Source of the DNA: a virus
Virus record (IMG/VR): IMGVR_UViG_3300028197_001558
Location: 1 to 64,000 of that record
Strand: one strand, 5' to 3'
Length of the DNA stretch: 64,000 bases
The notes below the pieces were generated by a model. The model did no database searches, had not been told where the DNA came from, and saw only the letters and a program-made list of their open reading frames with translations. A program made the position numbers and the translations under genes. The stretch's first letter is position 1; the number at the start of each line of letters is the position of its first letter. Shown here piece by piece: positions 34,717-53,947 of this stretch.

Positions 34717-35352
34717 ATGAAACTTACCGAAGCAAAATTAAAGAAACTCATTAACGAAGTATTGGAAGAGGGCATGAATACCGCCTCAATGCTCCCAGAT
34801 GATGTTTATGTTTTAATCATGAGGAGATCGACCGGTCTCTACGTTGTTGCCTTCGCTAACGAAGAAGGAGAGGTTATTATGCCTTGGACCATGGAAGGGG
34901 CGGAGAATGATGTCTATGGAGACGTAAACTTCTATACCAAGAGTTACGATGGCGAACCATGTGGTGGAGGTTCTATTATCGCTGTCACACAAGCTGCCGA
35001 GGGCTGGGGCCCTCTATTGTATGATATAGCAATGGAAGCAGCTACGATTATGACTAAGGGATTGGCTCCCGACAGAAACATTGTCTCAGACGAAGCATCC
35101 GAGGTATGGGACTATTATGATCAAAACCGCACAGATGTAAAAAAGAAACAACTTGACGATGAATACGGATCCTTAACCCCAGATGAACCAGAAGATGATT
35201 GTGGACAAGAATCCGCTCGCGATCGTTCATATAAAATGGAAGATTGGAACAAGTCTTCTTTATCAAGAATGTATAGCAAAGATCCGACAACCTTGAATCA
35301 GCTTCGTAATGCCGGAAAACTAATATTAAAACGAGTAACTTTAAATTTTTAA
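34717..35352 (+). CDS. tagged cargo candidate with divergent acetyltransferase-like domain
   Basis: A 211-residue protein with the N-terminal tag MKLTEAKLKKLINEVLEEG; the I-N-E at 12-14 fits the (I/L)-x-E rule of gp21 proteases. Behind the tag are a beta-rich segment and a helix GWGPLLYDIAMEAA, then GLAPDRNIVSDEASEVWDYY and LTPDEPEDDC. The last two blocks recur in the products at 50958 and 51714, which have a GNAT-like fold signature, so this is probably a third, degenerate member without an obvious R/Q-x2-G-x-G/A acetyl-CoA loop. It lies 8 bases behind the resolvase. I infer that it is packaged in the head; activity unknown. Confidence 0.6.
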   Translation: MKLTEAKLKKLINEVLEEGMNTASMLPDDVYVLIMRRSTGLYVVAFANEEGEVIMPWTMEGAENDVYGDVNFYTKSYDGEPCGGGSIIAVTQAAEGWGPLLYDIAMEAATIMTKGLAPDRNIVSDEASEVWDYYDQNRTDVKKKQLDDEYGSLTPDEPEDDCGQESARDRSYKMEDWNKSSLSRMYSKDPTTLNQLRNAGKLILKRVTLNF

Positions 35353-35364
35353 CGGAGAACCCAA

Positions 35365-35733
35365 ATGAAACTTACAAAAGAAGCCTTAAGGCAAATTATC
35401 AAAGAAGAGTTGCAAAACTCAATACAAGAAGCGGAGACTGGCTCTTTAGCAGACGTTTTAGACTTCCCAGAATGGCAAAATCTCGCAGACGATTTGGGAT
35501 CTAAATTACTCCAACTTGGAAACTTTATGGAACAAAGAGCATCAGCGGCTGCTGGTGATGACATGGGTTTCTCATTTGGCGAAGAAGCATCAGATTCGGA
35601 AGTTCAAGTATTCTACAAGATGGCTTTAGCAAGAAAAAAAGAGACTCAAGCAATCCGTGATTTTCTAGAGCCAGATATTTTCCTAAACAATAAGCAAACC
35701 TTGCTGGAATTCCTACAAAACAAGGGTCTATAG
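35365..35733 (+). CDS. small tagged cargo candidate
   Basis: A 122-residue protein whose first 17 residues (MKLTKEALRQIIKEELQ) are the common tag, with I-K-E at 12-14. The remainder is helical and acidic (LADDLGSKLLQLGNFMEQRA) with no recognised domain. A GGAG ribosome binding site precedes the ATG; the junction GGAGAACCCAAATGAAAC closely resembles that before the tagged gene at 48829. Function inferred only from the tag. Confidence 0.6.
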   Translation: MKLTKEALRQIIKEELQNSIQEAETGSLADVLDFPEWQNLADDLGSKLLQLGNFMEQRASAAAGDDMGFSFGEEASDSEVQVFYKMALARKKETQAIRDFLEPDIFLNNKQTLLEFLQNKGL

Positions 35734-35753
35734 AACTAATCTAAACTTTCTAC

Positions 35754-35782
35754 TTGACAAACCTTTAATAACGAGTTATCTT
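35754..35782 (+). promoter_or_regulatory. sigma-70 type promoter upstream of the primase gene
   Basis: Perfect TTGACA (35754-35759), 17-base spacer and TATCTT (35777-35782), followed by AAAGGAGG and the primase ATG at 35799. Position, spacing and intergenic location support a host-type promoter. Confidence 0.65.
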
Positions 35783-35798
35783 ATTAAAGGAGGACATT

Positions 35799-36734
35799 AT
35801 GATCGAGAACAAAAGAAAAATTGTAACCCAAGTTCTTGGGAGTTACTATCAGAAGGGTGATGAGCATTTATACCATTGCCCTTATTGCAATCACCACAAA
35901 AAGAAAATGTCGGTGAACTTCGCAAACGGCTACTGGAAATGCTGGATTTGTGATGCAAGAGGCAAGAACATTTACCGAATTGTAAGAAAGTTCGGCACCT
36001 ACCAGCAACGACAAAAGTATCTTGAATTACAAGGACGTCTTGATCTAAACGAGTTCGACAATCTGTTCAGGGAACTTAACAACATTGAAGAGAAGCAGCA
36101 CATTGACTTGCCCGAAGAGTTCATCTCATTGTGTAACAAAGACTTGCCTATCGAGACAACGGACGCATTCCGCTATCTGTCCTCTAGAGGCATTGGTCGA
36201 AGAGAAATATTAAAATGGAAAATTGGCTATTGTAAGGAGGGTCGTTATGCAGGAAGAATTATTATACCGTCGTTTGACATGGATGGAGATTGCAATTACT
36301 TCATCGCTCGCAGTTACGTTGGGCATTCTTATAGGTACCTCAACCCTCCAGCGGATCGTGACATCGTTTTTAATGAATTGATGATTGACTGGGATGAACC
36401 AATCGTTCTTGTCGAAGGTGTCTTTGATGCCATCGCAGCAGGAGAGAACGCCATCCCAATCCTCGGCTCAACCCTTAGGGAGCAGTCACGCTTGTTCCAA
36501 GCAATTGCTATTCACGACACACCAGTCTACATGGCTCTTGACTATGACGCCGAGAAGAAGGCCGAATGGATCATTAAGTCCCTACTTAAGTATGACCTCG
36601 AAGTTTTCAAAATTCCAATCGACGAAGAAGATGTTGGAGAAATGGGCGAGAAAGAGTTTAAAGAAAGACTACTTAGTGCTAGACAAATAAAGAATGAAAT
36701 GTATTTCTTTGAACAAATGTTGGAGAACATCTAA
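35799..36734 (+). CDS. gp61: gp61-like DNA primase (zinc finger plus TOPRIM)
   Basis: A 311-residue primase that would make RNA primers for lagging-strand synthesis. The N-terminal zinc-binding domain shows CPYC (Cys27, Cys30) and CWIC (Cys48, Cys51). The TOPRIM catalytic domain has the Glu motif LVEGVFDA (Glu206) and the DxD motif LDYDAEKKA (Asp248, Asp250). Length and order match the DnaG-type phage primases including T4 gp61, which lack the bacterial helicase-interaction domain. It has its own promoter and a strong ribosome binding site. The next, tagged, gene starts on a TAATG junction. Confidence 0.88.
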   Translation: MIENKRKIVTQVLGSYYQKGDEHLYHCPYCNHHKKKMSVNFANGYWKCWICDARGKNIYRIVRKFGTYQQRQKYLELQGRLDLNEFDNLFRELNNIEEKQHIDLPEEFISLCNKDLPIETTDAFRYLSSRGIGRREILKWKIGYCKEGRYAGRIIIPSFDMDGDCNYFIARSYVGHSYRYLNPPADRDIVFNELMIDWDEPIVLVEGVFDAIAAGENAIPILGSTLREQSRLFQAIAIHDTPVYMALDYDAEKKAEWIIKSLLKYDLEVFKIPIDEEDVGEMGEKEFKERLLSARQIKNEMYFFEQMLENI

Positions 36735-37174
36735 TGAAACTAACGGAAGCAAAATTAAAGCAATTAATCAACGAAACCTTGGAGATTACAAACCAAGAAA
36801 GAAAAATTGCAGACCTCTTAACTAGTTCGGCTGATGACGCAAACCTAGGATTGTCTTTCATAGAGTCTCTAGGAATGACACCGCACATTCGAAGGCAAAG
36901 AACTGGACCACACTTAGGCTATCCAAAGAGTAGACTAGAGCAGCCATATGAAATAATGAAAAATGTAAATCATCTTCAAATCACAGAATCTCTTTATGAG
37001 GCAATCGTTGAAGAATCAAAAAACAAGAGAATCTATGTGGATTCTACTGTTTCCGGAATGATTGTCAATACTCAAGATGTTAGAATTTATTTAAATAATA
37101 TAGACAAATCTCGTGTTAGAGATGGATATTATGGAGTTATTCAAGTGCAAATCGATGAGCGAGTTAGCGCATAA
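36734..37174 (+). CDS. small tagged cargo candidate
   Basis: A 146-residue protein with the tag MKLTEAKLKQLINETLE (I-N-E at 12-14), nearly the same as in the 34717 product. The remaining ~125 residues start helical (RKIADLLTSSADDA) and end beta-rich (RIYVDSTVSGMIV, YYGVIQVQID). No known family recognised. It is translationally coupled to the primase by a TAATG junction even though its tag suggests a virion protein. Confidence 0.58.
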   Translation: MKLTEAKLKQLINETLEITNQERKIADLLTSSADDANLGLSFIESLGMTPHIRRQRTGPHLGYPKSRLEQPYEIMKNVNHLQITESLYEAIVEESKNKRIYVDSTVSGMIVNTQDVRIYLNNIDKSRVRDGYYGVIQVQIDERVSA

Positions 37175-37216
37175 TATTAAAGGGCGCCTAATTATTATTG
37201 TAAAGCGGAGTCTTTT

Positions 37217-38116
37217 ATGATATTAGCATTTCTTCTCGCATGCGGAGGAGACATTGGCATCAGGCAGGTTGACAAAATTCCTTCCAACCCTGACACAGCG
37301 ACAACAATAGTTGACACATCTCCCTCAGATCCATCTAGCGAACCAGCTATAGAACCTGCCGGAGAACCGTCTACTGAGCCTTTAAACGGCACTGTTGGAC
37401 TCACTAGGTACACTCTAGAGCAACTAGCATGCCCAGCATGTATGGGAGCAAGTCAAGAGATTACTGTTTTGTTCGAGACTAAATTACATAATAAAATTAG
37501 TGAAGAACATCCACTTTGGTTCCCTCCTATGGAGCAGTGTACCACAAACACAAATCCAATAGAAATCAGCGTCTCTCCAATAAATGTTGGACAGTCTCTG
37601 AGCATACAAGGGTCGATGAATTCTTTCACGGCTTACAACAACGGTATGGGGCTGTACTCGAGCTATTTACAAGAGTGGCAATACGACAGAAATACTAGTA
37701 TGACTGTCAACATGCAAGACAATACATCCTACTCGTTTCGCTCCATCCAAGGTTTTGATGAGATACAACCGCTAGAACTTAGATATGTTGATCCTTCGTA
37801 TGCCTTTGCTGCTGTTGTCTCTAAATTTGGAACGACATTTTCATGGTTACCCGCAGGTGTGTCTGATGAGTTCAATGTTATGATAGCAACCTACTCTCCT
37901 GATGGCTCGCAGCTTTTAGGTGTGATTTCCTGTACTGTACCAGATACTGGTTTTATGAATTTTGATGGAAGCTACTTTCAGTCTTATCCGACTTGGTCAT
38001 TGGCTGCAATATATTTAACAAGGATATCGAAACAAAGAGTTCCATATGCAGGCTTAAACGGGTACATTGACATCCAGCTTGAGTGGACTGTTGTTGGCAC
38101 CGGCCATATCGAATAA
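37217..38116 (+). CDS. predicted lipoprotein with Ser/Thr-Glu-Pro repeats
   Basis: A 299-residue protein beginning MILAFLLACGGD: a very short signal peptide with lipobox LLAC and acylated Cys9. Residues 28-58 are a proline-rich linker with spaced SEP/TEP/GEP units (SSEPAIEPAGEPSTEP). The rest is a beta-rich domain with two Cys pairs (ACPACMG near 72, a Cys near 104). Such linkers are typical of bacterial surface lipoproteins. In a phage, membrane lipoproteins often block superinfection, so exclusion is a plausible role; a captured host gene is the alternative. GGAG at 37207 supports the ATG, and no in-frame upstream start gives a longer signal peptide. Confidence 0.6.
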   Translation: MILAFLLACGGDIGIRQVDKIPSNPDTATTIVDTSPSDPSSEPAIEPAGEPSTEPLNGTVGLTRYTLEQLACPACMGASQEITVLFETKLHNKISEEHPLWFPPMEQCTTNTNPIEISVSPINVGQSLSIQGSMNSFTAYNNGMGLYSSYLQEWQYDRNTSMTVNMQDNTSYSFRSIQGFDEIQPLELRYVDPSYAFAAVVSKFGTTFSWLPAGVSDEFNVMIATYSPDGSQLLGVISCTVPDTGFMNFDGSYFQSYPTWSLAAIYLTRISKQRVPYAGLNGYIDIQLEWTVVGTGHIE

Positions 38117-38158
38117 TTTCAATAGCACTCGATACTATATATTGGTGGAGGGTTTTAC

Positions 38159-38365
38159 TTGAAAGAGATCAAAGTCGGAAGTCTAGTGATATTTTTAGAC
38201 ATTTTTCAAAGCGATTCAATCCCAAACGTTGGCATTGTTTTGGAAGTCATCGATTTCGACGAACTAATCGGAGATTTTTACGGCTCGGAAGTTGTTTGGT
38301 ACGCTGTTTTGTTTGGAGAAGTCGACATGGTTGTGTCATCTGAAATGATTATCTTGCTTAGTTAA
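38159..38365 (+). CDS. small conserved-type phage protein, unknown
   Basis: A 68-residue protein starting at a TTG codon with a strong GGAGGG site 6 bases upstream. The sequence has a small beta-barrel-like pattern (VGSLVIFLD, NVGIVLEVID, VVWYAVLFG, SSEMIILL), similar to little phage proteins carrying a VGxLV...GIVLE...WYxVLW plan. Function unknown. A sigma-70 promoter lies directly downstream. Confidence 0.6.
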   Translation: MKEIKVGSLVIFLDIFQSDSIPNVGIVLEVIDFDELIGDFYGSEVVWYAVLFGEVDMVVSSEMIILLS

Positions 38366-38366
38366 C

Positions 38367-38395
38367 TTGACAAGTTATACTTAACATGTTATATT
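38367..38395 (+). promoter_or_regulatory. sigma-70 type promoter upstream of the Mre11-Rad50 gene pair
   Basis: Perfect TTGACA (38367-38372), 17-base spacer and TATATT (38390-38395) in an intergenic gap, followed by AGGAGG and the ATG at 38420. It probably drives 38420 and the recombination nuclease. Confidence 0.68.
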
Positions 38396-38419
38396 ATCTT
38401 ATACAATAGGAGGTATGAC

Positions 38420-41865: not shown

Positions 41866-41874
41866 TTGTAATGA

Positions 41875-41881
41875 CTATTTA
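41875..41881 (+). promoter_or_regulatory. putative phage late promoter box CTATTTA
   Basis: CTATTTA in the 38-base gap before the holin-like gene, 22 bases upstream of the ATG. Same box as in four other gaps; lysis genes would be expected to be late. Inferred from recurrence. Confidence 0.4.
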
Positions 41882-41903
41882 GTTCTAAAATAGGAGATCT
41901 ATT

Positions 41904-42948: not shown

Positions 42949-43316
42949 TGAGCAAAGATCCAAACTACGCTGTAAAGGTTGAGAAAGCCATAGCAGAAAG
43001 ATACGGCAAAGAAGCCGTAGTAAATCCTAAGTCAGAATGGGATGATGACAAAGAAAAAGAATATCTAGCCGAGCTGAAAAGCAACTATCGCCATGGCAAA
43101 TCCGAAACTGAAAGAGTTGAAATTGGTGGAGTTTTAATCTCGGAAGAACTACTTAATAGAGAATCCGAGCGTTCATGCCCCACTTGTAACACTTATTCAT
43201 TCAAATCCGTCGATGATCTTTACATGACAAAATTTGATTGTTGCTACAAATGTTACATCCAGTGGATAGAGGGTCGAGAAGAAAGATGGAAAAAAGGTTG
43301 GAGACCAAACAAATGA
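42948..43316 (+). CDS. zinc-ribbon-like small protein
   Basis: A 122-residue protein with a C-terminal four-cysteine set, CPTC near residue 76-79 and CCYKC near 98-102, spaced as in a zinc ribbon, followed by a helical WIEGREERWKKGWRP tail. The N-terminal part is acidic and contains ERYGKEAVV and a DDKEKEY stretch. Similar small proteins are found near packaging genes of marine phages, function unknown. It overlaps the upstream gene by one base and the following tagged gene by 4 bases (ATGA). Confidence 0.55.
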   Translation: MSKDPNYAVKVEKAIAERYGKEAVVNPKSEWDDDKEKEYLAELKSNYRHGKSETERVEIGGVLISEELLNRESERSCPTCNTYSFKSVDDLYMTKFDCCYKCYIQWIEGREERWKKGWRPNK

Positions 43317-43864
43317 AACTTACAAAAGAAACACTTAAACGAATCATTAAAGAAGAACTTGATGCTGTTATGAACGAAGAAGCGACGCCCGAGTTAGATT
43401 TGCCTCAACAAGATGCTAAAAAAGCATTACAGGTGGCAAAAGCTACAAAAGATACGCCTAAAATGCAAGCAATTTTTGATAGACTTGAAAAAGATCCTAA
43501 GTTTATGCAAGCAATTGATCAAATGAAACGAGAAATGTCTTCAACGAACGAGGGTATGGAAGCCCCCGAAGGTTATAGGGAAGTTCCGGGAGAATCTTCA
43601 AGTGATCCGTCTGCTGGAATGGCAATGCTTGGATCCATGGTAGGTTCTGTAGCAGGATGGAAAGTTCTGTATACATCTGGTGGAGCAGCTGCGGTTGCAG
43701 CCCTAGCACCACACTATGGATCAGATCTTGCCACTGCAGGTGTTGTCGGCGCCGCAGTAGCCGCTCCAATACTTTTAGGATTTATACTTGATAGAGTCGG
43801 TGATGCTGCAACAGGTGGCAACTGGAATCCAGAGATAATAAAGAAACCAGAGGGGATAAGATGA
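43313..43864 (+). CDS. tagged cargo candidate with C-terminal membrane segments
   Basis: The true start is the ATG at 43313 (overlapping the upstream TGA), because it restores the tag MKLTKETLKRIIKEELDAV; this gives 183 residues. I-K-E at 12-14 fits gp21-type processing. After a helical region, residues about 104-165 are Gly/Ala-rich and hydrophobic and can form two membrane helices (AMLGSMVGSVAGWKVLY, then TAGVVGAAVAAPILLGFIL). A protein that is both tagged and membrane-active could be stored in the head and injected to make a channel in the cell membrane; a holin-like role is the alternative. No homology is recognised. Confidence 0.58.
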   Translation: MKLTKETLKRIIKEELDAVMNEEATPELDLPQQDAKKALQVAKATKDTPKMQAIFDRLEKDPKFMQAIDQMKREMSSTNEGMEAPEGYREVPGESSSDPSAGMAMLGSMVGSVAGWKVLYTSGGAAAVAALAPHYGSDLATAGVVGAAVAAPILLGFILDRVGDAATGGNWNPEIIKKPEGIR

Positions 43865-44415
43865 GCAAAGAAACATTGGAAATTATACAGGGACTATCGC
43901 AAGCTGCTGCAAATGCTTACGACGGTTCCCATGACGAGAGATTTACTCTCGATGGACAAACAAAGCAGGTAGGTTTACAAAGAGAATCTGGTTGCCCACT
44001 TATAGACAAGAGAGTGATCGATGGGTTCTCCGTTAAGTTCTATGCGGACTCAATGATCATCAACTATCAAAGTGACGTCAGAATGAAAGAGCTTAAAGAT
44101 AACAGTTTTGAGAACGATATTGTCAAAACAATCAATGAAGTTAAGAAATTTCTACAGAAAGAGTACAAGGCAGTTACCGGCAAGTCAGTTTCTTTGACGG
44201 CCAAAGGTGAGCCGAATATCCTCGTGCAAGCAACTTCTAGATATAGAACGTTCGTACAAGCATATCAGCACTATAAAATCGGTGGACTGAAGATGGATCA
44301 AATTAATGCACCATCAGAAGATCCTACTCGAGATATTACAAAGAAATTTTTGAAAGCAGCGAAAGCAAAGCGACCTCAAAATGAAAAAATTAAAGCTTCG
44401 GACAATCAGAAATGA
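43861..44415 (+). CDS. conserved-type phage protein, unknown
   Basis: A 184-residue protein coupled by ATGA overlaps to the tagged genes on both sides. The start MSKETLEIIQGLSQAAANAYDG lacks the tag. Central segments are mixed alpha/beta (VIDGFSVKFYADSMIINYQSD, then NDIVKTINEVKKFLQKEY), and the C-terminus is basic and probably disordered (KAAKAKRPQNEK). The family seems to occur in other marine phages near packaging genes. The last ~19 codons belong to a direct repeat that recurs at the end of the next gene. Confidence 0.55.
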   Translation: MSKETLEIIQGLSQAAANAYDGSHDERFTLDGQTKQVGLQRESGCPLIDKRVIDGFSVKFYADSMIINYQSDVRMKELKDNSFENDIVKTINEVKKFLQKEYKAVTGKSVSLTAKGEPNILVQATSRYRTFVQAYQHYKIGGLKMDQINAPSEDPTRDITKKFLKAAKAKRPQNEKIKASDNQK

Positions 44416-44461
44416 AGCTCACAAAAGAAACATTAAAGCAAATCATCAAAGAAGAGTTGGA
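44356..44461 (+). repeat. direct repeat copy 1 spanning a gene junction and the tag sequence
   Basis: About 106 bases covering the last ~19 codons of the 43861 gene, the overlapping stop/start and the first ~17 codons of the 44412 gene. Copy 2 lies exactly 563 bases downstream (44919-45024) with no insertion or deletion; by eye about 45 of 56 bases before the ATG and about 45 of 50 after it are the same. Confidence 0.75.
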
Positions 44462-44942
44462 AGCTATTCAACAAGAAGGTTTTGTAGATTCCATTAAAGA
44501 CACGTTCTTTGGTAGAAGCGCACCCAATCCTGCTATGAAAGGATTTAATCAAGGACCAAGCCCTCATAATTTTGAATTGGTTGATGAGAGAGAATTAGGA
44601 TTCCGAAAGAGAAAGTTCCTACGCGATTTAGAACAAACTCGAACAAGTGTTGAAATGGGTAAAAACTCTAGTATGATTGACGCTCAGCAGATAATGGATG
44701 ATATCGAAGCAGACTTGTCCGGTATTGATGCTATGGGATACGTTCATGCAAATGCCAACTCTCTATTCTTACCAGGAGTAATTGAGAACCCACCAATCAC
44801 ACCCGATTATGTTGGAGATCCAATGACTGGCTGGTTAACTCTCTCAAAATATCTTAGCGGAAGGACCAGTCGTCTACCGGTAGAAAACAAAGATCTTTTA
44901 GCAATTCAACAGGCGTACGCAGCGGAAGCAAAGCGCTCTTAA
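44412..44942 (+). CDS. tagged cargo candidate
   Basis: A 176-residue protein with tag MKLTKETLKQIIKEELEAI (I-K-E at 12-14). The rest contains a charged helical part (RKRKFLRDLEQTRTSVEM near 70-90) and a Pro/Gly-rich segment (VIENPPITPDYVGDP) with no recognised domain. Its 3' end (AAEAKRS then TAA) aligns in frame with the C-terminus of the 43861 product (AAKAKRPQ), and the alignment continues past the stop codon, showing that this end arose by duplication and was shortened by a CAA-to-TAA type change. Confidence 0.6.
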   Translation: MKLTKETLKQIIKEELEAIQQEGFVDSIKDTFFGRSAPNPAMKGFNQGPSPHNFELVDERELGFRKRKFLRDLEQTRTSVEMGKNSSMIDAQQIMDDIEADLSGIDAMGYVHANANSLFLPGVIENPPITPDYVGDPMTGWLTLSKYLSGRTSRLPVENKDLLAIQQAYAAEAKRS

Positions 44943-45024
44943 AATAAAAAAATTAACCCAAAGGATAATCAGAAATGAAACTCACAAAAGAAACATTAAA
45001 GCAACTCATCAAAGAAGAACTAGA
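44919..45024 (+). repeat. direct repeat copy 2 spanning a gene junction and the tag sequence
   Basis: Second copy of the 44356 repeat. It begins inside the 3' end of the 44412 gene, crosses the 32-base gap (which still encodes, in frame after the stop, the peptide NKKINPKDNQK and a TGA like the NEKIKASDNQK end of the 43861 product), and ends within the tag of the 44975 gene. Confidence 0.75.
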
Positions 45025-45313
45025 ACAAGTTGTCGATGAGGGATACACTGCCGGTGGTGATTTTCCAATGCCAAAGGCGTCCATGGGCGTCCTATACAAC
45101 TTCAATGATGAGCAAAAAGAAGCTTTGAAATGGGGAATTGACCAGCTCGAAAGGGGCCCTAAGAACTATGATTGGTCAGCCAAAGTTCTCAGACATTTAG
45201 CTTATAGACATCCTGCCTTTAAGGGAGAGAATTATCCAACAATGGCATTACAAGATCAAATGAAAAGAATGGGATACGAAGGAAAAATTTACACAACTAC
45301 CGCTGTTCCATAA
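44975..45313 (+). CDS. small tagged cargo candidate
   Basis: A 112-residue protein with tag MKLTKETLKQLIKEELEQV, I-K-E at 12-14. The remaining ~90 residues hold a helix-rich domain (DEQKEALKWGIDQLERGPKNYDW outline, then SAKVLRHLAYRHPAFKG) of unknown type. It sits directly upstream of the terminase and its first bases belong to the junction repeat shared with 44412. Confidence 0.6.
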   Translation: MKLTKETLKQLIKEELEQVVDEGYTAGGDFPMPKASMGVLYNFNDEQKEALKWGIDQLERGPKNYDWSAKVLRHLAYRHPAFKGENYPTMALQDQMKRMGYEGKIYTTTAVP

Positions 45314-45332
45314 GATATAGTGTCGAGGCCGA

Positions 45333-46910
45333 ATGAAACTCACCAAAAATGAAATCGTTAAAGAGCTTGTAAAGTGCGGAAAAGATCCTCAATATTTTAT
45401 TGACAATTATTGCAAGATCTCTCACCCAATGCACGGGCAAATTCCTTTTAAGACTTATGACTACCAAAAGGACATGCTTAAGAGCTTTAACGATTATCGC
45501 TTTAACGTAATTTTAAAAGCAAGGCAGCTCGGGATCTCAACCATCTCGGCTGCTTATGTTGCTTGGTTTATGTTGTTTCATCGAGAAAAGAATGTTCTCG
45601 TAATCGCGACAAAACTATCTACAGCAGTGAACCTCGTAAAGAAGGTCAAGATGATCTTCAAGAACCTTCCATCCTGGATGCTCATCGCAAAGATCCAAAC
45701 AGACAACAAGCAATCATTTGAGTTGACAAACGGGTCTCAAGTTAAAGCCGGAACCACTTCAGGTGACGCCGGTCGATCAGAAGCTTTATCTCTTCTCATT
45801 ATTGACGAGGCAGCGTTCGTTGACGGTCTAGAAGAGCTTTGGACGGGTCTTTACCCTACTTTGTCTACAGGGGGTCGCTGTATCGCTCTAAGCACCCCTA
45901 ACGGCGTTGGAAACTGGTTTCATAAAACCTACACCGAAGCTGAAGATGCTCGGAATGATTTTAATCATATCGAACTCATGTGGGACGTACATCCTGACAG
46001 AGATCAAGAATGGTTCGAGAAAGAAACTAGAAATATGTCTAAGAGGCAGATAGCACAAGAGCTCGAGTGCTCATTTAATGCTTCCGGTGAAACAGTTATT
46101 AATCCCGAGGATCTTCAGAGAATACATGCGACTCTGTCTGAACCAATTTACAGAACAGGGTATGACAGAAATTTCTGGATCTGGGAGAAATACGAAGAAG
46201 GATTACCCTATCTTCTTGTTGCTGATGTGGCGAGAGGAGACGGAAGTGACTTTTCCTGCTTTCATGTCATAAGAGTGGATACGATGACGGTGGTGGCCGA
46301 ATATCAAGGCAAGCCAGATCTAGACATGTATGCCGGGATTTTACAATCAGCAGGTAAAGAATACGGAACCTGTTTGCTTGTAGTTGAAAATAACGGAATT
46401 GGGATTGCTGTCTTGGAGAAGCTTAAAGACTTGGGATATTCTAAAATTTATTACTCCTATAAGTCAACCCACGAGTATGTCGAGTCTTATTTGGCTGAGT
46501 ATGACGAAAGAGCTATACTAGGTTTTACTACGTCTACAAAGACAAGACCATTAATTGTAGCTAAATTAGAGGAGTACGTTAGAAACAAACTAATTAACAT
46601 ACACTCTTCTCGTGTTTTTAACGAACTGAAGACTTTTATTTGGCACAATGGTAAACCTCAAGCTATGCGATCTTATAATGATGACCTAGTAATGTCTCTT
46701 GCAATTGCCTGTTGGGTTCGAGATACTGCTCTAACGGAAAATGAAAAAGACATGGCATACAAAAAGGCGATGATTGGTGGGTTAATGAAATCTACCACAA
46801 CCATGAACACTCAAATAAAAGGCCAAGACTTCTACAAAGAAACGTTCAATGAAAAACACGAGGAGGAAATAAAGAAAACAAAAGAATTTTTCTGGATATA
46901 CAAAGGATAG
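45333..46910 (+). CDS. gp17: large terminase subunit (gp17-like)
   Basis: A 525-residue DNA-packaging motor. The ATPase domain shows a Walker A-like LKARQLGIST at 61-70 and Walker B LLIIDEAAF (Asp158, Glu159), with a following coupling motif LSTPNG. The C-terminal RNase H-like nuclease has VADVARGDGSD (Asp298), LLVVENNGIG and a closing NDDLVMSLAIA with the last acidic ligand. Length and layout match T4 gp17. It translocates DNA into the prohead through the portal encoded 3 bases downstream. The N-terminus begins MKLTK, but then diverges from the tag. Confidence 0.93.
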   Translation: MKLTKNEIVKELVKCGKDPQYFIDNYCKISHPMHGQIPFKTYDYQKDMLKSFNDYRFNVILKARQLGISTISAAYVAWFMLFHREKNVLVIATKLSTAVNLVKKVKMIFKNLPSWMLIAKIQTDNKQSFELTNGSQVKAGTTSGDAGRSEALSLLIIDEAAFVDGLEELWTGLYPTLSTGGRCIALSTPNGVGNWFHKTYTEAEDARNDFNHIELMWDVHPDRDQEWFEKETRNMSKRQIAQELECSFNASGETVINPEDLQRIHATLSEPIYRTGYDRNFWIWEKYEEGLPYLLVADVARGDGSDFSCFHVIRVDTMTVVAEYQGKPDLDMYAGILQSAGKEYGTCLLVVENNGIGIAVLEKLKDLGYSKIYYSYKSTHEYVESYLAEYDERAILGFTTSTKTRPLIVAKLEEYVRNKLINIHSSRVFNELKTFIWHNGKPQAMRSYNDDLVMSLAIACWVRDTALTENEKDMAYKKAMIGGLMKSTTTMNTQIKGQDFYKETFNEKHEEEIKKTKEFFWIYKG

Positions 46911-46913
46911 AAA

Positions 46914-48839
46914 ATGGCCCGTAATAATAGAAACCCTAATAATAATCAAAATGAACTCTTTAAGACGTTAACTAAGATGTTCTCTGGTCCAATAACCCAG
47001 CGAAGAACACAGTCTGGGAGACAATTACGACGCCGACACTTAGACAAATACGCTAAGAGATTCCAAACCGCATCGGGTCAGCAGTTCAAAAAGACTGAAT
47101 ATAACCCTATGAACATCATGGCTCTCAACATGATCTCGAACAGAAACCGTTCGGAACGATATGTTGACTTTGACCAAATGGAATTTACACCAGAGATTGC
47201 ATCCTCACTAGATATTTACGCAGATGAGATGACAACACACTCGGCATTGAATCCGATGCTTCATATCAAATGTCCGAATGATGAGATCAAGTATATGTTG
47301 CATGCTCTCTACTATAACATCATGAACATTGAACATAACCTCTTTGGTTGGGCAAGAACTATGTGTAAGTACGGAGACATGTTTTTGTATCTAGATCTCG
47401 ATGAGGAGAAGGGGTTGCAAAATTGTATTGGACTTCCACCTCAAGAAGTGGAAAGGCTTGAAGGAGAAGACCCAACAAATCCGAATTACGTTCAGTTTCA
47501 GTGGAACAGCGCAGGTCTTACTTTAGAGAATTGGCAAATGGCTCACTTTCGTGTACTTGGAAACGACAAGCATGCTCCATACGGAACATCTGTTTTAGAG
47601 CCCTCTAGACGCATCTGGAGACAGCTTACGCTCCTCGAGGACGCAATGATGGCCTATCGAATTACAAGGTCACCAGAGCGACGTGTGTTCAAGATTGACG
47701 TTGGTGGAATTGCACCTCAAGATGTTGAGCAATACATGCAGAAAGTTATGACACAAATGAAACGACATCAAGTTGTTGATGAAAAGTCCGGACGCGTAGA
47801 TTTACGCTATAACCCTCTCTCGATTGAAGAAGACTACTTTATCCCCATTAGAGGTGGACAGTCCTCTACAGACATTGTGAACCTTCCTGGTGGGCAATTT
47901 ACAGCACAGATCGAAGACGTGAAGTATCTCCGAGATAAACTATTCTCAGCATTAAAAGTTCCTCAATCTTATCTCTCTATGGGAGAAGGTGGTACCGAAG
48001 ACAAGACAACCCTCGCACAGAAGGATATCCGATTCGCAAGAACAATCCAACGACTTCAGAGAGTGCTAATCACCGAGCTAGAGAAGATTGGAATCATCCA
48101 CTTGTATACACTTGGTTATCGTGGAGACGACTTATTAAACTTTAAACTCAGCCTTAACAATCCATCGAAGATTGCTGAGATGCAAGAGCTTGAACACTGG
48201 AAGACAAAGTTTGATATCGCTGGAGCTGCAACAGAGGGTTATTTCTCTCGACGTTGGGTTTCTGAAAATCTACTCGGATTGTCTCAAGACGAATACTTGA
48301 GAATGCAAAGAGAAATGTTTACCGACAAGAAATTCATGGCAGGCCTTGAAGCTGCTGGTCAACCAGCAGAAGAAGGTGGAGGAGACTTGGGTGGCGATCT
48401 TGGTGGAGACATGGACCTAGGTGGTGACGACTTAGGTAGCGACTTGGGTGGTGATGATCTAGGTGGAGATCTAGGTGATGACGACTTAGGTGGTGACACA
48501 GGCGGAGAAGAGGAGGGCGACTTACTAGCTGAGCCTCCCGCCAAACGTGACGATGACGCAAAGCCAAATAAGAGAGGCCCATACAAGAAGCATAAAATTT
48601 CTTATCGCAAAGGTGGATTCTCGAAACAAATGAAGAACCAAGCATTTAGCGGAGAAGTTCGTGGCTCAACAGCAAGAACAACCTTTCCGGGCAAAGTTGG
48701 CTTTGGTGGAATGGATTCTTTGGCAAGAGGAATCTATGAAGAGAACGAAAATGAAGAAGCGAAACTATTTAGCATTGACGCATCAATAAAGACTCTACTC
48801 GAGTCACTCAACAAAAAGGAAAACCCAGATGAAACTTAA
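46914..48839 (+). CDS. gp20: portal protein (gp20-like)
   Basis: A 641-residue portal protein of the T4 gp20 family, the dodecameric ring at the DNA-entry vertex. Family features include DQMEFTPEIASSLDIYADE near 85-105, a YGDMFLYL strand, the RSPERRVFKIDVG block near 255, NLPGGQ near 323, and KVPQSYLSMGEG near 350. Residues about 485-545 form an unusual low-complexity acidic tail of repeated GGDLGGD / GGDDLG units, followed by a basic stretch (KPNKRGPYKKHKISYRKGGF). The last 11 bases overlap the start of the tagged gene at 48829. Confidence 0.92.
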   Translation: MARNNRNPNNNQNELFKTLTKMFSGPITQRRTQSGRQLRRRHLDKYAKRFQTASGQQFKKTEYNPMNIMALNMISNRNRSERYVDFDQMEFTPEIASSLDIYADEMTTHSALNPMLHIKCPNDEIKYMLHALYYNIMNIEHNLFGWARTMCKYGDMFLYLDLDEEKGLQNCIGLPPQEVERLEGEDPTNPNYVQFQWNSAGLTLENWQMAHFRVLGNDKHAPYGTSVLEPSRRIWRQLTLLEDAMMAYRITRSPERRVFKIDVGGIAPQDVEQYMQKVMTQMKRHQVVDEKSGRVDLRYNPLSIEEDYFIPIRGGQSSTDIVNLPGGQFTAQIEDVKYLRDKLFSALKVPQSYLSMGEGGTEDKTTLAQKDIRFARTIQRLQRVLITELEKIGIIHLYTLGYRGDDLLNFKLSLNNPSKIAEMQELEHWKTKFDIAGAATEGYFSRRWVSENLLGLSQDEYLRMQREMFTDKKFMAGLEAAGQPAEEGGGDLGGDLGGDMDLGGDDLGSDLGGDDLGGDLGDDDLGGDTGGEEEGDLLAEPPAKRDDDAKPNKRGPYKKHKISYRKGGFSKQMKNQAFSGEVRGSTARTTFPGKVGFGGMDSLARGIYEENENEEAKLFSIDASIKTLLESLNKKENPDET

Positions 48840-49287
48840 CAAAGAAACACTTAAACGAATCATTAAAGAAGAACTCGAAGCAGTCATGAATGAGACGATG
48901 ACAAAACCCCAAATCGGAGGCAATATAACTCCTGATCAACAATTAAAAATTGATGACCTTATCAACTCTGGGAAAGAAGATTATATCAACCAAGCCAGAT
49001 CATTGGTAGATGGCTTAGGTGGAAACCCAGAATATGTCGATGCACTTTTGAATATAGAATATCAAGGAATCACATCAATGGCCCACCAACAAAGAGATGT
49101 TGTTGATTCCTTCCCTGATTATGAGGATGCAACAGATCAAGATACCAAAGATTTCTACGATGCGACAGTTAACCATGAGTACGACGCCCGTCAGAAAATA
49201 GAAGACAGATACTATGATACACCAGAGACCGCAAGCCGTGCAGGACGCATGTACCACAACACATCAAACTCTAGGATCCGTAAATGA
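48829..49287 (+). CDS. tagged cargo candidate
   Basis: A 152-residue protein with tag MKLNKETLKRIIKEELEAV, I-K-E at 12-14; at DNA level its first 50 bases differ from those of the 43313 gene by only a few positions. The remainder is acidic and helical with many Asp/Tyr (FPDYEDATDQDTKDFYDA) and no recognised domain. It begins inside the end of the portal gene and is coupled by ATGA to the next tagged gene. Confidence 0.62.
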   Translation: MKLNKETLKRIIKEELEAVMNETMTKPQIGGNITPDQQLKIDDLINSGKEDYINQARSLVDGLGGNPEYVDALLNIEYQGITSMAHQQRDVVDSFPDYEDATDQDTKDFYDATVNHEYDARQKIEDRYYDTPETASRAGRMYHNTSNSRIRK

Positions 49288-49565
49288 AGCTTAACAAAGA
49301 AACACTTAAAAGAATTATCAAAGAAGAATTTGATAGACTAAGTGAAGGCATGTTTTCTCCTACTGAAATCTATATGGACTTTCAGAGACAAGGCGGCCGG
49401 GATTATTGGATCTCTAAAGCACATGGAATGAATATGAAGTATTCAGACTTTATGCATGCCGACCAAGCACTCAAAGCCTATATTGATGAGATCAACCCAT
49501 CCTTAAATGATATGCCCCAAAATGTTTGGAGCCAAATAACGCAACTAATTAACGACACAGTATAA
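49284..49565 (+). CDS. small tagged cargo candidate
   Basis: A 93-residue protein with tag MKLNKETLKRIIKEEFDRL, I-K-E at 12-14. After the tag it contains a helical domain (PTEIYMDFQRQGGRDYWISK outline, then ADQALKAYIDEIN) without a known relative. The pair 48829/49284 sits between portal and protease, where T4-type phages place small prohead core genes, which supports a head role. Confidence 0.62.
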   Translation: MKLNKETLKRIIKEEFDRLSEGMFSPTEIYMDFQRQGGRDYWISKAHGMNMKYSDFMHADQALKAYIDEINPSLNDMPQNVWSQITQLINDTV

Positions 49566-49580
49566 AACAAGGAAACAAAC

Positions 49581-50396
49581 ATGAAACATAATAAGAAAAG
49601 AAATACCGCTTTTCTTTACGAATGTCTAATTCGTGAATTGACAAAAGCAATTGTTCAAGAGAATAAATCCAAGCAAACAAAAGTCAAGGGACTTTTAAGA
49701 GAATTCTTCTCAAAAGGAAAGTCTCTCAAGCAAGAACTTGACATTTATCGTAGTCTTATGGAGACTAAGGATGTCAGCGAAGACTTTTCCCGACGGCTGC
49801 TTTTAGAAAGTAAGGTTGATTTTACAAAGCTTGATAGAAAAGAAATCTTCAATGAGCAGACAACTCTGATCAACAAGATCAACAAAGCTCTTGGCGGTGA
49901 AGCCTTTGCGAATTTTGTTCCCAACTACAAAGACTTGGCAACCCTTGGTTTGTTTTTTCAAAACGACAACCTCAACGCGAAAAAAAGAATCATGTTAGAA
50001 TCTAAAATGGTAAATTTTCTTACCAGAAAAGAGCAAAACCAGACAGAAATGAAACCGGTTGATCAGCTTGAGTTCAAAATGTTTGTCAAAAGATTTAATG
50101 ACACTTACGAGAACTCATTGCTCCGAGAACAAAAAGAATTATTAAGTAACTTCATTGTTTCCTTCGCGGACAATGGTTTAGGCTTAAAGTCCTATCTAAA
50201 TGACGAGATTGGAAGACTCAAAGAAGCTGTGGCTACCGAAATAGTAGAGACGGACAGTGTTGCCTTAAAAGAAAATTTTGAAAAAGTTAAGGCCAAGCTT
50301 CATAGTTATGCCAAAACTCCTTTAAATTCGCAAATTGTAGAAGAAGTGTTTTATATACAGGATCTTTTAGCGGAGGTAAAGCGCAATGTCAATTAA
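49581..50396 (+). CDS. conserved-type head-region protein, unknown
   Basis: A 271-residue, largely helical protein starting MKHNKKRNTAFLYECLIREL. The KKRNTAFLYECLIRELTKAI start recalls a family that lies between portal and protease in marine T4-like phages; function is not known to me. Long helical stretches and a basic character would suit a prohead core or assembly factor. It overlaps the next gene by 11 bases. Confidence 0.55.
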   Translation: MKHNKKRNTAFLYECLIRELTKAIVQENKSKQTKVKGLLREFFSKGKSLKQELDIYRSLMETKDVSEDFSRRLLLESKVDFTKLDRKEIFNEQTTLINKINKALGGEAFANFVPNYKDLATLGLFFQNDNLNAKKRIMLESKMVNFLTRKEQNQTEMKPVDQLEFKMFVKRFNDTYENSLLREQKELLSNFIVSFADNGLGLKSYLNDEIGRLKEAVATEIVETDSVALKENFEKVKAKLHSYAKTPLNSQIVEEVFYIQDLLAEVKRNVN

Positions 50397-50958
50397 TATT
50401 ACTATTTCCGATGAAGGAGCAGAGCAGTTACCACCAGAACCAAAAGGTGTAAAAATTGAAGTTGTCGAAAAAGACAATATCGAAGGGAAGCTGAACTTAA
50501 GATCAGCAATCAACGGCGACCTAATGATCATGGACCACAAAGACATTGATATAGTTGTGAAACCAAAAGACAAAAAGATAGTTGCATTTGCAAAAGATAC
50601 TTTGTCAGATTTAGTTTACGGCGCAGAATCTAGACTACTTGAGTACCTCAGAAAAACTGGTGTGCTAGAGATAGACTCGATACAAGGTGGAAATATTTAT
50701 GGATCATTAGAGGGTCAAATTCAAGAAGGAGAAAAGTCAGTGGAAATAGCTCTGATGAAAATCTCAGAATGGATGGAGACAGAACAGCCAATGATTGCAG
50801 GCAGAACCGGCTATGATGAAATGGAAGACGAACACCTACTAGAGCCTGACGGTGAGTATTCCACCGAGCTCGGAGAAGTACCTCAAGCAGAAGAGAAGGG
50901 ATCGATTAACAAATCAACATTGTTCGCTCCTTATCTATACGGGAGATATTCATACTAA
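50386..50958 (+). CDS. head-region protein, unknown
   Basis: A 190-residue protein with a beta-rich N-terminus (VKIEVVEKDN), a helix near residues 70-90 (DTLSDLVYGAESRLLEYLRKTG), and an acidic C-terminal part (YDEMEDEHLLEPDGEYSTEL). No domain recognised. It is wedged between the 49581 gene (11-base overlap) and a tagged acetyltransferase-like gene (TAATG), in the head-assembly cluster. Confidence 0.5.
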   Translation: MSINITISDEGAEQLPPEPKGVKIEVVEKDNIEGKLNLRSAINGDLMIMDHKDIDIVVKPKDKKIVAFAKDTLSDLVYGAESRLLEYLRKTGVLEIDSIQGGNIYGSLEGQIQEGEKSVEIALMKISEWMETEQPMIAGRTGYDEMEDEHLLEPDGEYSTELGEVPQAEEKGSINKSTLFAPYLYGRYSY

Positions 50959-51701
50959 TGAATCACAAACTTATAATGGAAGGGTGGAGAAAGTTCTTAG
51001 GAATGGATAGCAAGAAAGAAACTAGCGACTTTAACCCAGCACAAACATGTATGATTGCGTTAGACCAAAAGGGACGCAGAAAAAAAATAATCTTGTACAA
51101 CCCAAGAGGCATTAGAAAGCTTTCACGCGATGAAATGAAAAACGGAGATCACTATACAGAGATAGAGATGATTGGAAGCATAGACCTGGTAATTTCCACT
51201 ATAATATCAAAAGAGCCATGTATAGCAGACACGTATCAAATTGCAGCAATCTATGTCGCTGATGCTTATAGGGGTAACGGACTTCAAAAGCAACTAATGG
51301 ATATAGCTTTTTACATGGCTTCTGAGGAAGGCGCTGGGCTGACATCGGACCATCAGTATGGAACGAGACCCAAGGCTGGTGGAGCATGGAAGAAGATTGA
51401 AAAAAGTTCAAGCTACGAAAAGAAGACGACGAGCAAAGGCAACGATACTTTTGACTACGATGAATCCACTTCAGATCCAAATGACGATTGTAGTAAGCCA
51501 AAAAGAGACCCTTCAGCTACTGAGCATAGTTTTGAAAAGAAATCAAACGCTGTAGGCGGAAACCTATACGACAGATATGGATCACAACACAAAGTAATAG
51601 CCAACTTCATGAAAAGTAAATTTGTAGATGTCGGCGACTTCGAAGATGCCATGAAAAGAATTTCTAATAGTGAATTCAGAGACGCATACGCTAATAGCTA
51701 A
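50958..51701 (+). CDS. GNAT acetyltransferase-like protein with MNxKLIMExWRxFL tag
   Basis: A 247-residue protein. The N-terminal peptide MNHKLIMEGWRKFLG has I-M-E at 6-8, another (I/L)-x-E. At about 95-120 is IAAIYVADAYRGNGLQKQLMD, the acetyl-CoA loop pattern R-G-x-G of GNAT motif A, followed by GLTSDHQYG and a FDYDESTSDPNDDC block. The downstream gene repeats the whole plan. In phages, GNAT-like enzymes can modify host proteins early in infection; if packaged it could be delivered with the DNA. Enzymatic activity is not proven by the sequence. Confidence 0.6.
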   Translation: MNHKLIMEGWRKFLGMDSKKETSDFNPAQTCMIALDQKGRRKKIILYNPRGIRKLSRDEMKNGDHYTEIEMIGSIDLVISTIISKEPCIADTYQIAAIYVADAYRGNGLQKQLMDIAFYMASEEGAGLTSDHQYGTRPKAGGAWKKIEKSSSYEKKTTSKGNDTFDYDESTSDPNDDCSKPKRDPSATEHSFEKKSNAVGGNLYDRYGSQHKVIANFMKSKFVDVGDFEDAMKRISNSEFRDAYANS

Positions 51702-51713
51702 AGGGAAAATAAC

Positions 51714-52448
51714 ATGAATCAAAAGCTTATAATGGAAAGCTGGCGTCGCTTTCTTCATGAAGAAAAGAAGAGAGGCATTCGCTTAGGTGATGAAGTCGTC
51801 TGCTTGAGAGCAGAGATCAGTCCCAAGAGTGATGCGGAGTTTACACTCTATACACCAGGACCTGGTACAAAAGCGTCCAACAGAATTCTCAGACTAGAAA
51901 TAATAGGACAAATAAACATTTCAAGTCTTAAAAGTAGTGGACCATGCCTGACGGCAGATGGGAAGAATCCATCTTGGCACGTGGAAGCCATTCACACAGC
52001 GGAGAAGTACAGAAACGTTGGCTACGGAGCCCTCCTTTATGGGTTTGCATTTTACGTAGCAAAGAATGACAATGCCGGTCTTACATCGGATAAAGACACG
52101 GGCTCGAAAAAAGACGCCGTTATCAAGTGGGATTCATTCGAGAAGAACACTCAAACATTCGACAAGGTAACAACTCCTGCTGGTAACAATACTTTTGACT
52201 ACGACAGTGTAACACCTGATCCAGACGATGACTGTGATGTATTGGTCGATGATGAACAAAATGCTACCGACTTTAGTTTTGACCACAAGAACCCACAAAT
52301 CTATGAAGAGTCAATGACGATGTATGAGGCAAACCATATGGAATTCTTAAGCGAAGTTCTCGACTCTGGCTTTATGAGCGAGAAAGAGTTCAATAAGTTT
52401 TTAGATCAAGCCGCTTTTACTAGCTTCACAAACGAATACGATGATTAA
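51714..52448 (+). CDS. GNAT-like paralogue with MNxKLIMExWRxFL tag
   Basis: A 244-residue paralogue of the preceding protein: tag MNQKLIMESWRRFLHEE (I-M-E at 6-8, L-H-E at 14-16), then HVEAIHTAEKYRNVGYGALLYG, GLTSDKDTGS, and NTFDYDSVTPDPDDDC. The acetyl-CoA loop here is R-N-V-G-Y-G, a closer match to the Q/R-x2-G-x-G/A consensus than in 50958. The C-terminal ~50 residues are helical and acidic. Tandem arrangement implies local duplication followed by strong divergence. Confidence 0.6.
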   Translation: MNQKLIMESWRRFLHEEKKRGIRLGDEVVCLRAEISPKSDAEFTLYTPGPGTKASNRILRLEIIGQINISSLKSSGPCLTADGKNPSWHVEAIHTAEKYRNVGYGALLYGFAFYVAKNDNAGLTSDKDTGSKKDAVIKWDSFEKNTQTFDKVTTPAGNNTFDYDSVTPDPDDDCDVLVDDEQNATDFSFDHKNPQIYEESMTMYEANHMEFLSEVLDSGFMSEKEFNKFLDQAAFTSFTNEYDD

Positions 52449-52463
52449 CAACAAGAGGCCTAC

Positions 52464-52793
52464 TTGGAACTTTTAAATTTTATTCTCGCAGCTTACGGTA
52501 TGACATTTATGATAGTCTACGGTAAAATCTTTGAAGACATCAGGCCCAAGAAGGACTACACAAAGAAGTGGAACACGCTGTGGAACTGTCCATTGTGCAT
52601 TGGTTTTCACGTAGGTTGGGTTTTAATGCTCCTTTCTCAATATACCGAACTATTTACTTACGAGTGTTCTTTCGGGAATGCTTTTGTTCTCGGTTGCATA
52701 TCAGCTGGAACATCTTATTTAATTTCGGTCTTAGTCGATGATTTTGGACTAAGGCTATCGTCGAGATCAGGAGGTGATTATGTCGATGATTAA
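52464..52793 (+). CDS. small membrane protein with CPLC motif (DUF1360-like outline)
   Basis: A 109-residue membrane protein starting at TTG with an AAGAGG site 5-6 bases upstream. Two or three hydrophobic segments are visible: LNFILAAYGMTFMIVYG, GFHVGWVLMLLSQY and AFVLGCISAGTSYLISVLV. Between the first two is WNCPLCIGFHVGW, the CPxCxGFxVG signature of small membrane proteins such as DUF1360. Relatives lie beside the prohead protease gene in marine T4-like phages. A membrane anchor for prohead assembly is possible but unproven. Confidence 0.6.
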   Translation: MELLNFILAAYGMTFMIVYGKIFEDIRPKKDYTKKWNTLWNCPLCIGFHVGWVLMLLSQYTELFTYECSFGNAFVLGCISAGTSYLISVLVDDFGLRLSSRSGGDYVDD

Positions 52794-52839
52794 GCGCTGG
52801 GTTTTACAACCCGTCCGTCGCTGCTGCAGCGGATCCTAG
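52780..52839 (+). CDS. possible 19-residue peptide with a near-perfect ribosome binding site
   Basis: AGGAGGTGATT, almost the full complement of the 16S rRNA 3' end, lies directly before ATG 52780, inside the 3' end of the membrane protein gene. The frame encodes MSMIKRWVLQPVRRCCSGS, a short basic peptide, and ends at TAG 52839 among hairpins. It may be a leader peptide or chance; the strong site is what makes it worth listing. Confidence 0.35.
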   Translation: MSMIKRWVLQPVRRCCSGS

Positions 52840-52860
52840 CTCGAGCGGGTAACGCCCGCT
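52799..52860 (+). other. GC-rich multi-hairpin segment before the prohead protease gene
   Basis: Three short perfect hairpins follow one another: GGGTT/AACCC (52799-52812), CGCTG/CAGCG (52819-52831) and AGCGGG/CCCGCT (52844-52860). The segment is markedly richer in G+C than its surroundings and is followed by a fourth, terminator-like hairpin. It does not fold into a tRNA by eye. Candidate structured RNA, processing site or attenuator. Confidence 0.5.
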
Positions 52861-52862
52861 AA

Positions 52863-52896
52863 GGGTGGAGCTTTGCTCTGCCCACCTTTTTATTTT
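52863..52896 (+). terminator. rho-independent terminator (or attenuator) upstream of the prohead protease
   Basis: A bulged hairpin with arms GGTGGAGC and GCTC..CCACC and a TTT loop (52864-52886) is followed by TTTTTATTTT. The protease ribosome binding site (TTGGAG) comes directly after, so read-through must be substantial or another promoter is needed. Confidence 0.6.
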
Positions 52897-52906
52897 GGAG
52901 AAAAGA

Positions 52907-53533
52907 ATGAGTAAAAAATTATTAAGAGAGTTCCACGCATTGTGTCCCGATGGAAGATGTCTCGATCTCTTGACAGAGAGAGAGAAAAAAGAAGTTGTTC
53001 AAGACGGAGCAGTATATTTGACTGGTCGGATCCAAACAGCAGACAAGAAAAACGGCAATGGCCGCAAGTATCCTCATAAGGTCCTCAAAAGAGAGATGGA
53101 CAATTACATGAGAATAGTAAAAGATAACAGAGCGACAGGTGAATTAGATCACCCTGACGACTCCGTAATTAACCTTAAAAACGTTTCTCACATGGTCACC
53201 GACTGTTGGTGGGAAGGTAAGGACGTAATGGGCAAGATCAAGGTCCTAGATACTCCTAGCGGTAGAATCCTAAAGGATCTCATTAATGCTGGTGTAAAGC
53301 TTGGAATTTCATCTCGAGGACTTGGTTCGGTCAAAGAATCTATGGGCGAGACCATAGTAGAGGAAGACTTCCAACTCATCTGCTTTGACATAGTTTCAGA
53401 GCCATCAACCCCAGAAGCATATGTTTATCCGGGTGAAGGCAAGCCAAAGACTTCAAACGCTTTCAATATGAGATTGAGAGAACAGAGAGAAAACAATATT
53501 GATGACCTATTTAAGAAGATTCTTGGAGATTAA
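52907..53533 (+). CDS. gp21: prohead protease (gp21-like, S80 family)
   Basis: The ATG at 52907 with TTGGAG upstream is chosen over a GTG at 52865 that lies inside the terminator hairpin; this gives 208 residues. Catalytic outline: GELDHPD (His82), GISSRGLG (Ser135/136) and ICFDIVSEPSTP (Asp161), the signature of T4 gp21-type serine proteases. In T4 this enzyme is activated inside the prohead and cuts scaffold, capsid and internal proteins after (I/L)-x-E. Its presence in a cluster of I-x-E-tagged proteins supports the cargo hypothesis. The next gene begins immediately after the stop. Confidence 0.9.
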   Translation: MSKKLLREFHALCPDGRCLDLLTEREKKEVVQDGAVYLTGRIQTADKKNGNGRKYPHKVLKREMDNYMRIVKDNRATGELDHPDDSVINLKNVSHMVTDCWWEGKDVMGKIKVLDTPSGRILKDLINAGVKLGISSRGLGSVKESMGETIVEEDFQLICFDIVSEPSTPEAYVYPGEGKPKTSNAFNMRLREQRENNIDDLFKKILGD

Positions 53534-53947
53534 ATGAATAAAGATCAACTAAAAAAGACCTTGAGACCAATGATAAAAGAGTGTATCAAAGAAGTAATAT
53601 TCGAAGAAGGTATTCTTTCAAGTATTATATCTGAGGTAATGAAGGGTACGTCTGCTCCTTTAGTGGAGTCTAGACAGCCAACATATCAACAACCACAAGT
53701 AGACTACGAAGCTCGTGAAAGAGCAGCCAAAGAGGAGCGAAGAAAAATGCTCGACTCAATTGGTAGAGATTCTTACAACGGTGTTGATTTATTTGAAGGA
53801 ACTCAACCACTTCAAGAAAGAAGATCTTCCGCTCATTCTCCACGCGGATCCAAACCACTAGACGGTATAGCACCGAACGACCCAGGAGTTAACTTGGGCG
53901 CATTGGGTGTAGATACTAGGCTCTGGTCTAAATTAGCTAAAGGATAA
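53534..53947 (+). CDS. head-region protein with divergent tag-like N-terminus
   Basis: A 137-residue protein starting MNKDQLKKTLRPMIKECIKE; a basic/hydrophobic helix with I-K-E at 14-16, like a longer, divergent form of the cargo tag. The middle is charged (ARERAAKEERRKML), and the C-terminus is GVNLGALGVDTRLWSKLAKG. Similar proteins occur behind the prohead protease in marine myoviruses, role unknown. It may be a core or internal protein. Confidence 0.6.
   Translation: MNKDQLKKTLRPMIKECIKEVIFEEGILSSIISEVMKGTSAPLVESRQPTYQQPQVDYEARERAAKEERRKMLDSIGRDSYNGVDLFEGTQPLQERRSSAHSPRGSKPLDGIAPNDPGVNLGALGVDTRLWSKLAKG

Follow-up and report, generated by a model that had tools for sequence, protein, structure and literature searches.

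Interchangeable N-terminal tags as probable capsid-targeting sequences of a T4-like internal-protein system in an environmental virus

A stretch of 64,000 bases from the 65,275-base IMG/VR virus record IMGVR_UViG_3300028197_001558, referred to here as the window, encodes ten proteins that begin with one of two short peptides, termed tag 1 and tag 2, together with a prohead protease of the S77 (T4 gp21) type. These N-terminal peptides are very likely the capsid-targeting sequences of a T4-like internal-protein system, removed by the S77 protease, with the cargo being ejected into the host. The arrangement is best read as T4-like targeting in which the tag families are new and the set of cargos is much larger. 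It also appears probable, at a lower level of confidence, that within the T4-like phages a large environmental branch relies on several interchangeable tags for head targeting, that the sets of injected proteins loaded in this way are very large and change fast, that they include hundreds of undescribed cargo families, and that injected effectors can be predicted from metagenomes by the tag alone.

Tag 1, with the start MKL(T/N)xxxLKxxI(K/N)E (MKLTKETLKQIIKEEL...), is found on eight open reading frames (ORFs) of the window and tag 2, MN(H/Q)KLIMExWRxFL, on two. All ten had been listed in a first-pass annotation of the window and were confirmed, as was its assignment of the gene at 52907 to the gp21-type proteases (PF03420, Peptidase S77, E=2.2e-33 and 115.9 bits against a curated cut-off of 27; phrog_207, E=1.6e-58). 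The tagged genes and the head genes form a single co-directional stretch. Genes are named by their first coordinate, and an arrow marks the likely cleavage site.

34717..35352, + strand: tag-1 protein, 211 amino acids (aa); likely site VLEE↓G (E18); its cargo is a relative of the GNAT-like tag-2 family
35365..35733, + strand: tag-1 protein, 122 aa; likely site SIQE↓A (E22)
36734..37174, + strand: tag-1 protein with a short tag, 146 aa; likely site LINE↓T (E14)
43313..43864, + strand: tag-1 protein, 183 aa; likely site VMNE↓E (E22); a single hydrophobic stretch at ~residues 141-160
44412..44942, + strand: tag-1 protein, 176 aa; tag end IQQE↓G, departing from hydrophobic-x-E
44975..45313, + strand: tag-1 protein, 112 aa; likely site VVDE↓G (E22)
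48829..49287, + strand: tag-1 protein, 152 aa; likely site VMNE↓T (E22)
49284..49565, + strand: tag-1 protein, 93 aa; likely site RLSE↓G (E21)
50958..51701, + strand: tag-2 protein, 247 aa, GNAT-like; tag end FLGMD, without a clear site
51714..52448, + strand: tag-2 protein, 244 aa, with a GNAT-like fold model; likely site FLHE↓E (E16)
52907..53533, + strand: S77 (T4 gp21-type) prohead protease

The strongest evidence that these peptides may serve as a modular address label is provided by tag exchange. Removal of the tags from 505 proteins resulted in 376 cargo families, 319 of which are singletons, with a median cargo length of 94 residues past the tag. Homologous cargos were found with different tags in the locus pairs L171/L200 (78% identity), L174/L094 (a P-loop kinase, 64%) and L122/L093 (62%). 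One cargo even occurs with three tags: with tag 1 in L351 (MKTTERQLRMIIRE↓MLELDLEKGDIILTGRF) and L103 (MKITRRQLRKIISE↓ALELDIEEGDVILTGRF), with tag 2 in L095 (MKLLLENWRKYMKE↓NIDLDIKVGDVLLGGRY), and in L319/L344 (MKHLREYIRQILLE↓SISLDVDVGDVILTGRF) with a third tag, MK(H/L)LR(Q/E)YIR(Q/E)(I/L)L(L/T)E, which was identified on at least 12 proteins (L345, ~14000-20000, and L319), one of them P-loop kinase-like. In the window, the cargo behind tag 1 of 34717 is related to the tag-2 family of 50958 and 51714 (best E=3e-9) and to tag-3 proteins of a jumbo-phage contig. The earlier statement that the sequences following the tags are mostly unrelated consequently holds in general and fails for 34717. A search for relatives returned two for 34717 and none for 44412; in the case of 49284, the tag is kept in eight near relatives and the remaining matches have the tag alone in common. 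Apart from the 51714 family, the relatives of the window cargos are scarce or almost identical to them.

At the DNA level, the tag-1 pattern was identified in at least 120 stretches in viral contigs of IMG/VR. A permuted pattern using the same kind of codons gave 0 matches across all viral contigs, and random viral loci totalling 1.02 Mb contained no strict tag 1. In bacterial and archaeal genomes amounting to 257 billion bases, the pattern occurred on four contigs, all from metagenome-assembled bins, and several of these exhibit dense tag arrays. The motif is located directly after the start codon in 674 of 699 cases, and many of the 25 motifs found elsewhere represent one helix of the conserved gene 49581. 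A few tag-1 motifs are positioned internally or near the C-terminus of ORFs in L103/L361 (110 and 70 aa) and L359 (217 aa) and are either real internal tags or the result of wrong starts. In pairwise comparisons of the eight tag-1 sequences of the window, codon position 3 differs in 40%, position 1 in 20% and position 2 in 17%, with 113 synonymous codon differences, and the DNA flanking these tags is poorly conserved (identity of 33% upstream and 27% downstream). Since the third codon position varies most and the flanks are not conserved, the peptide and not the DNA is under selection. The same tag peptide was also found to be encoded by different codons across clades.

Two classes of tag 1 exist, long tags with E at position 15 and short tags. 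In an alignment of 347 tags, the information drops to near zero past column 22; because the pattern used for fetching fixed columns 1 to 14 only, the conservation at columns 15 to 22 is an independent result. Long tags exhibit a hydrophobic-x-E with E at 20-24 in 73% of cases, compared with 6-11% for background windows. The counts come from related contigs and not from independent events; the main site test, repeated with one tag per cargo family, identified the hydrophobic-x-E end in 229 of 307 long tags (shuffle mean 68, maximum 91). At P3 of the terminal site, L or I is found in 204 of 281 cases and M or V in the others. In short tags, the I-I-x-E at 14 is mostly followed by A, S, V or T, without an excess of a later site, and tag 2 terminates as WxxF-phi-x-E in 48 of 62 cases. 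A comparable site, LLKE↓S, is present in the capsid protein encoded just beyond the window, with LLxE↓(S/A) in the orthologs of the group. From the two end classes it follows that each tag tends towards one terminal gp21-type site. Judged by this conservation, the probable cut in most long tags lies behind residue 21/22 and not behind the IKE at 12-14. Cleavage at an early I-x-E, as initially proposed, is thus compatible with the short tags (12-14; e.g., 36734) and probably not with the long ones, which are conserved up to the hydrophobic-x-E at 21/22; for tag 2, the end is F-L-x-E instead of the suggested I-M-E at 6-8.

In T4, propeptides carry cargo into the core and are removed by gp21 after L/I-x-E (PMC9026906). 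For the tagged proteins, we infer that they bind the scaffold, are cleaved, packaged and ejected, and act as effectors. In this model, the amphipathic tag helix would bind the scaffold core during prohead assembly, thereby bringing the cargo inside, and the S77 protease would cut after the hydrophobic-x-E at the tag end, i.e., around residue 21/22 in long tag-1 forms, at 14 or 18 in short forms and after F-L-x-E in tag 2. The freed cargo, mostly small and soluble, would remain with the DNA and then be ejected into the host, where it would most likely counter defences or reprogram the cell. An aspartate at the cut position in T4 was reported to block processing, not targeting (PMC9026906); since its tag ends with FLGMD, 50958 may be packaged untrimmed.

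The presence of the tags is linked to the head protease. On contigs of at least 70 kb chosen for tag 1 alone, S77 was detected in 20 of 28 cases, compared with 3 of 15 random contigs of at least 60 kb (Fisher p=0.003). The eight S77-negative contigs are most simply considered as fragments without the head module, as all of them are also devoid of gp23. According to the first-pass annotation, its proposal would be refuted if the tag were widespread in genomes lacking a prohead protease; the contigs gave no such refutation, and all 18 long tag-selected contigs with a gp23 capsid gene possess S77. In 79 loci fetched by means of the protease, 110 of 110 tag-1 genes and 49 of 49 tag-2 genes are located on the protease strand, and in a number of clades the gene immediately following the protease is tagged. 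The converse linkage fails, with many S77 phages of the cultured collection lacking such a tag. Overall, tag exchange, the hydrophobic-x-E end, the common strand and the protease linkage lend good support to the initial idea that many cargos carry capsid-targeting peptides removed by the gp21-type protease.

Most window cargos have no family in PHROGs or Pfam, and Pfam recognises few of 140 family representatives. The matches comprise a YkuD L,D-transpeptidase, P-loop kinases (AAA_33 and guanylate kinase), an RNase_T exonuclease and an NT5C nucleotidase, as well as a zeta-toxin-like P-loop protein, pentapeptide repeats and leucine-rich repeats. A role of the tag as a membrane or secretion signal was rejected, as a membrane helix is predicted for 3 of the 376 cargo families. 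In a structure model of the 51714 tag-2 family (mean pLDDT 83), the tag forms a separate helix outside the folded domain (pLDDT <50). All top PDB matches of this model are acetyltransferases (best E 1.1e-3) and Pfam scores remain below the cut-off; the family models as a divergent, GNAT-like acetyltransferase. Tandem GNAT-like tag-2 genes, up to three side by side, are located between portal and protease in L141, L130, L169 and L158.

The number of strict tag copies per tag-selected contig ranges from 1 to 12, and these counts are minima because most contigs are fragments. The 306-kb contig NHDW01000006.1 (L335-L350), binned with a Methylococcaceae metagenome-assembled genome, is regarded as phage because it carries an S77 protease, which is accompanied by a gp23-type capsid site of the same type. 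It contains 37 tagged genes, 25 with tag 1 (19 of them inside ~10 kb) and 12 with tag 3. A possible further tag was observed in Flavobacterium phage immuto (MW353176, 117587-118887), where two adjacent proteins share the start (N/D)(F)(N/D)L(R/K)(S/K)FL(T/V)ENKLT.

The remaining head genes of the window are:

45333..46910, + strand: terminase large subunit
46914..48839, + strand: portal protein (phrog_213, 1.6e-73)
53534..53947, + strand: conserved head-cluster gene 3' of the protease, probably a core component; N-terminal helix distantly tag-1-like
62826..63953, + strand: probable scaffold, judged by its position directly before the capsid gene and its composition only

The gp23-type capsid gene follows just beyond the window end. 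The order terminase, portal, ..., protease, ..., scaffold, capsid is also found in the cultured Microcystis phage Mel-JY01 and in Flavobacterium phage vB_FspM_immuto, the latter with tag-1-like starts at 102250, 111140 and 113144. A ribosomal protein S21-like gene is located within the head cluster (53952-54140) and occupies the same position in Mel-JY01. Gene 53534, previously listed as a tagged cargo, indeed carries a distant form of the helix, which resembles tag 1 (MNKxxLKKxLKPLIKECIKEVIFE↓(E/D)G). However, most related loci have an ortholog at the same position, and the classification as variable cargo was therefore dropped in favor of a conserved head-cluster gene. Because this conserved helix is tag-1-like, it may be speculated that tag 1 originated as the beginning of a core protein. 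After the protease in L043, L096, L099 and L366, large conserved proteins of the head cluster (431-686 aa) were observed to have a tag-2-like start, e.g., WSSFEKQQLLTENWRKF.

Several observations weigh against the interpretation as cleaved capsid-targeting sequences. The I-I-K-E at 11-14 fits the protease motif as well and may be the cut point instead, two of the ten window tags (44412 and 50958) are without a clear terminal site, and the M and V found at P3 make the site wider than the L/I of T4. The co-occurrence with the protease partly reflects shared ancestry, all of these phages being T4-like, and the tags show no recognisable homology to the T4 targeting peptide. An alternative is an unremoved helix that docks the proteins to another phage assembly or enzyme (e.g., tail, polymerase or replication complex) unrelated to the head, since a docking peptide, too, would appear as an amphipathic helix conserved at the N-terminus of many proteins. 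Such a helix is considered unlikely, as it leaves unexplained why the tags stop sharply at hydrophobic-x-E, why there are two end positions, the short one being followed by small residues, why tags are exchanged for unrelated ones with the same ending, and why they are linked to the prohead protease.

Somewhat less likely still is a scenario in which prohead targeting is real but serves mainly to place structural or core proteins in the head instead of injected effectors. It draws on the propeptides of T4 core proteins (PMC9026906), on the related helix of the conserved 53534 and on the tag-2-like start of some conserved head-cluster genes. Core proteins are expected to be conserved, whereas most cargos are contig-specific, as reflected by the high proportion of singleton families, and those that can be recognised are enzymes (kinases, L,D-transpeptidase, exonuclease and nucleotidase). 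The arrangement of tagged genes in arrays and the cassette exchange that clearly occurs at the tag might also indicate a DNA-level cassette, i.e., a start region or recombination site with an incidental peptide. This explanation was rejected as an artefact and has a negligible probability in view of the codon-position variation, the non-conserved flanks and the different codons used across clades. Capsid targeting followed by cleavage and ejection remains the favored explanation.

Should the tags indeed label proteins that are injected, hundreds of phage proteins with no assigned function would become a list of candidates for anti-defence and host takeover, and the tags themselves would be tools for loading phage heads outside enteric hosts. 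Which proteins a phage injects would then be readable from sequence and testable for each gene.

A motif search of the open-licence literature, with subscription papers outside its scope, yielded no description of these tags, and no usable virion proteomics of the cultured Flavobacterium relative was found there. A tblastn search of 50,697 phage records, for which such short queries are weak, matched tag 1 to one uncultured megaphage and tag 2 at chance level, with no match to the targeting peptides of cultured T4-group phages. Among known systems, an N-terminal signal of P1 DarB is sufficient for a foreign protein to enter the head (PMC9024508); unlike the tags, it is described for one 250 kDa protein and not as a repeated family, and a separate scaffold is not known for P1. 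In phiKZ and SPN3US, head proteins are trimmed after glutamate by a distant gp21 homolog (PMC9026906) and many proteins are ejected (PMC10052503), but in these sources no single short tag repeated on hundreds of unrelated cargos is described. The closest resemblance is to the capsid-targeting sequences of T4 (IPI, IPII, IPIII and Alt; gp21), with which the tags share the short N-terminal peptide on otherwise unrelated proteins, the S77 protease, the L/I-x-E type site, the gp23-type capsid and hypervariable cargo (PMC9026906, PMC3012670, PMC12373910). In T4-type internal proteins, the targeting sequence is the sole shared part (PMC3012670, PMC12373910), and the injected internal proteins of T4 are specific inhibitors of type IV restriction enzymes, with three in T4 and at least 10 reported across its relatives (PMC12373910). 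Unlike the 10-residue T4 sequence of enteric phages, the tags described here differ in sequence, extend over ~14 to 22 residues, belong to at least three exchangeable types and occur in environmental phages on many more cargos per genome, representing hundreds of cargo families.

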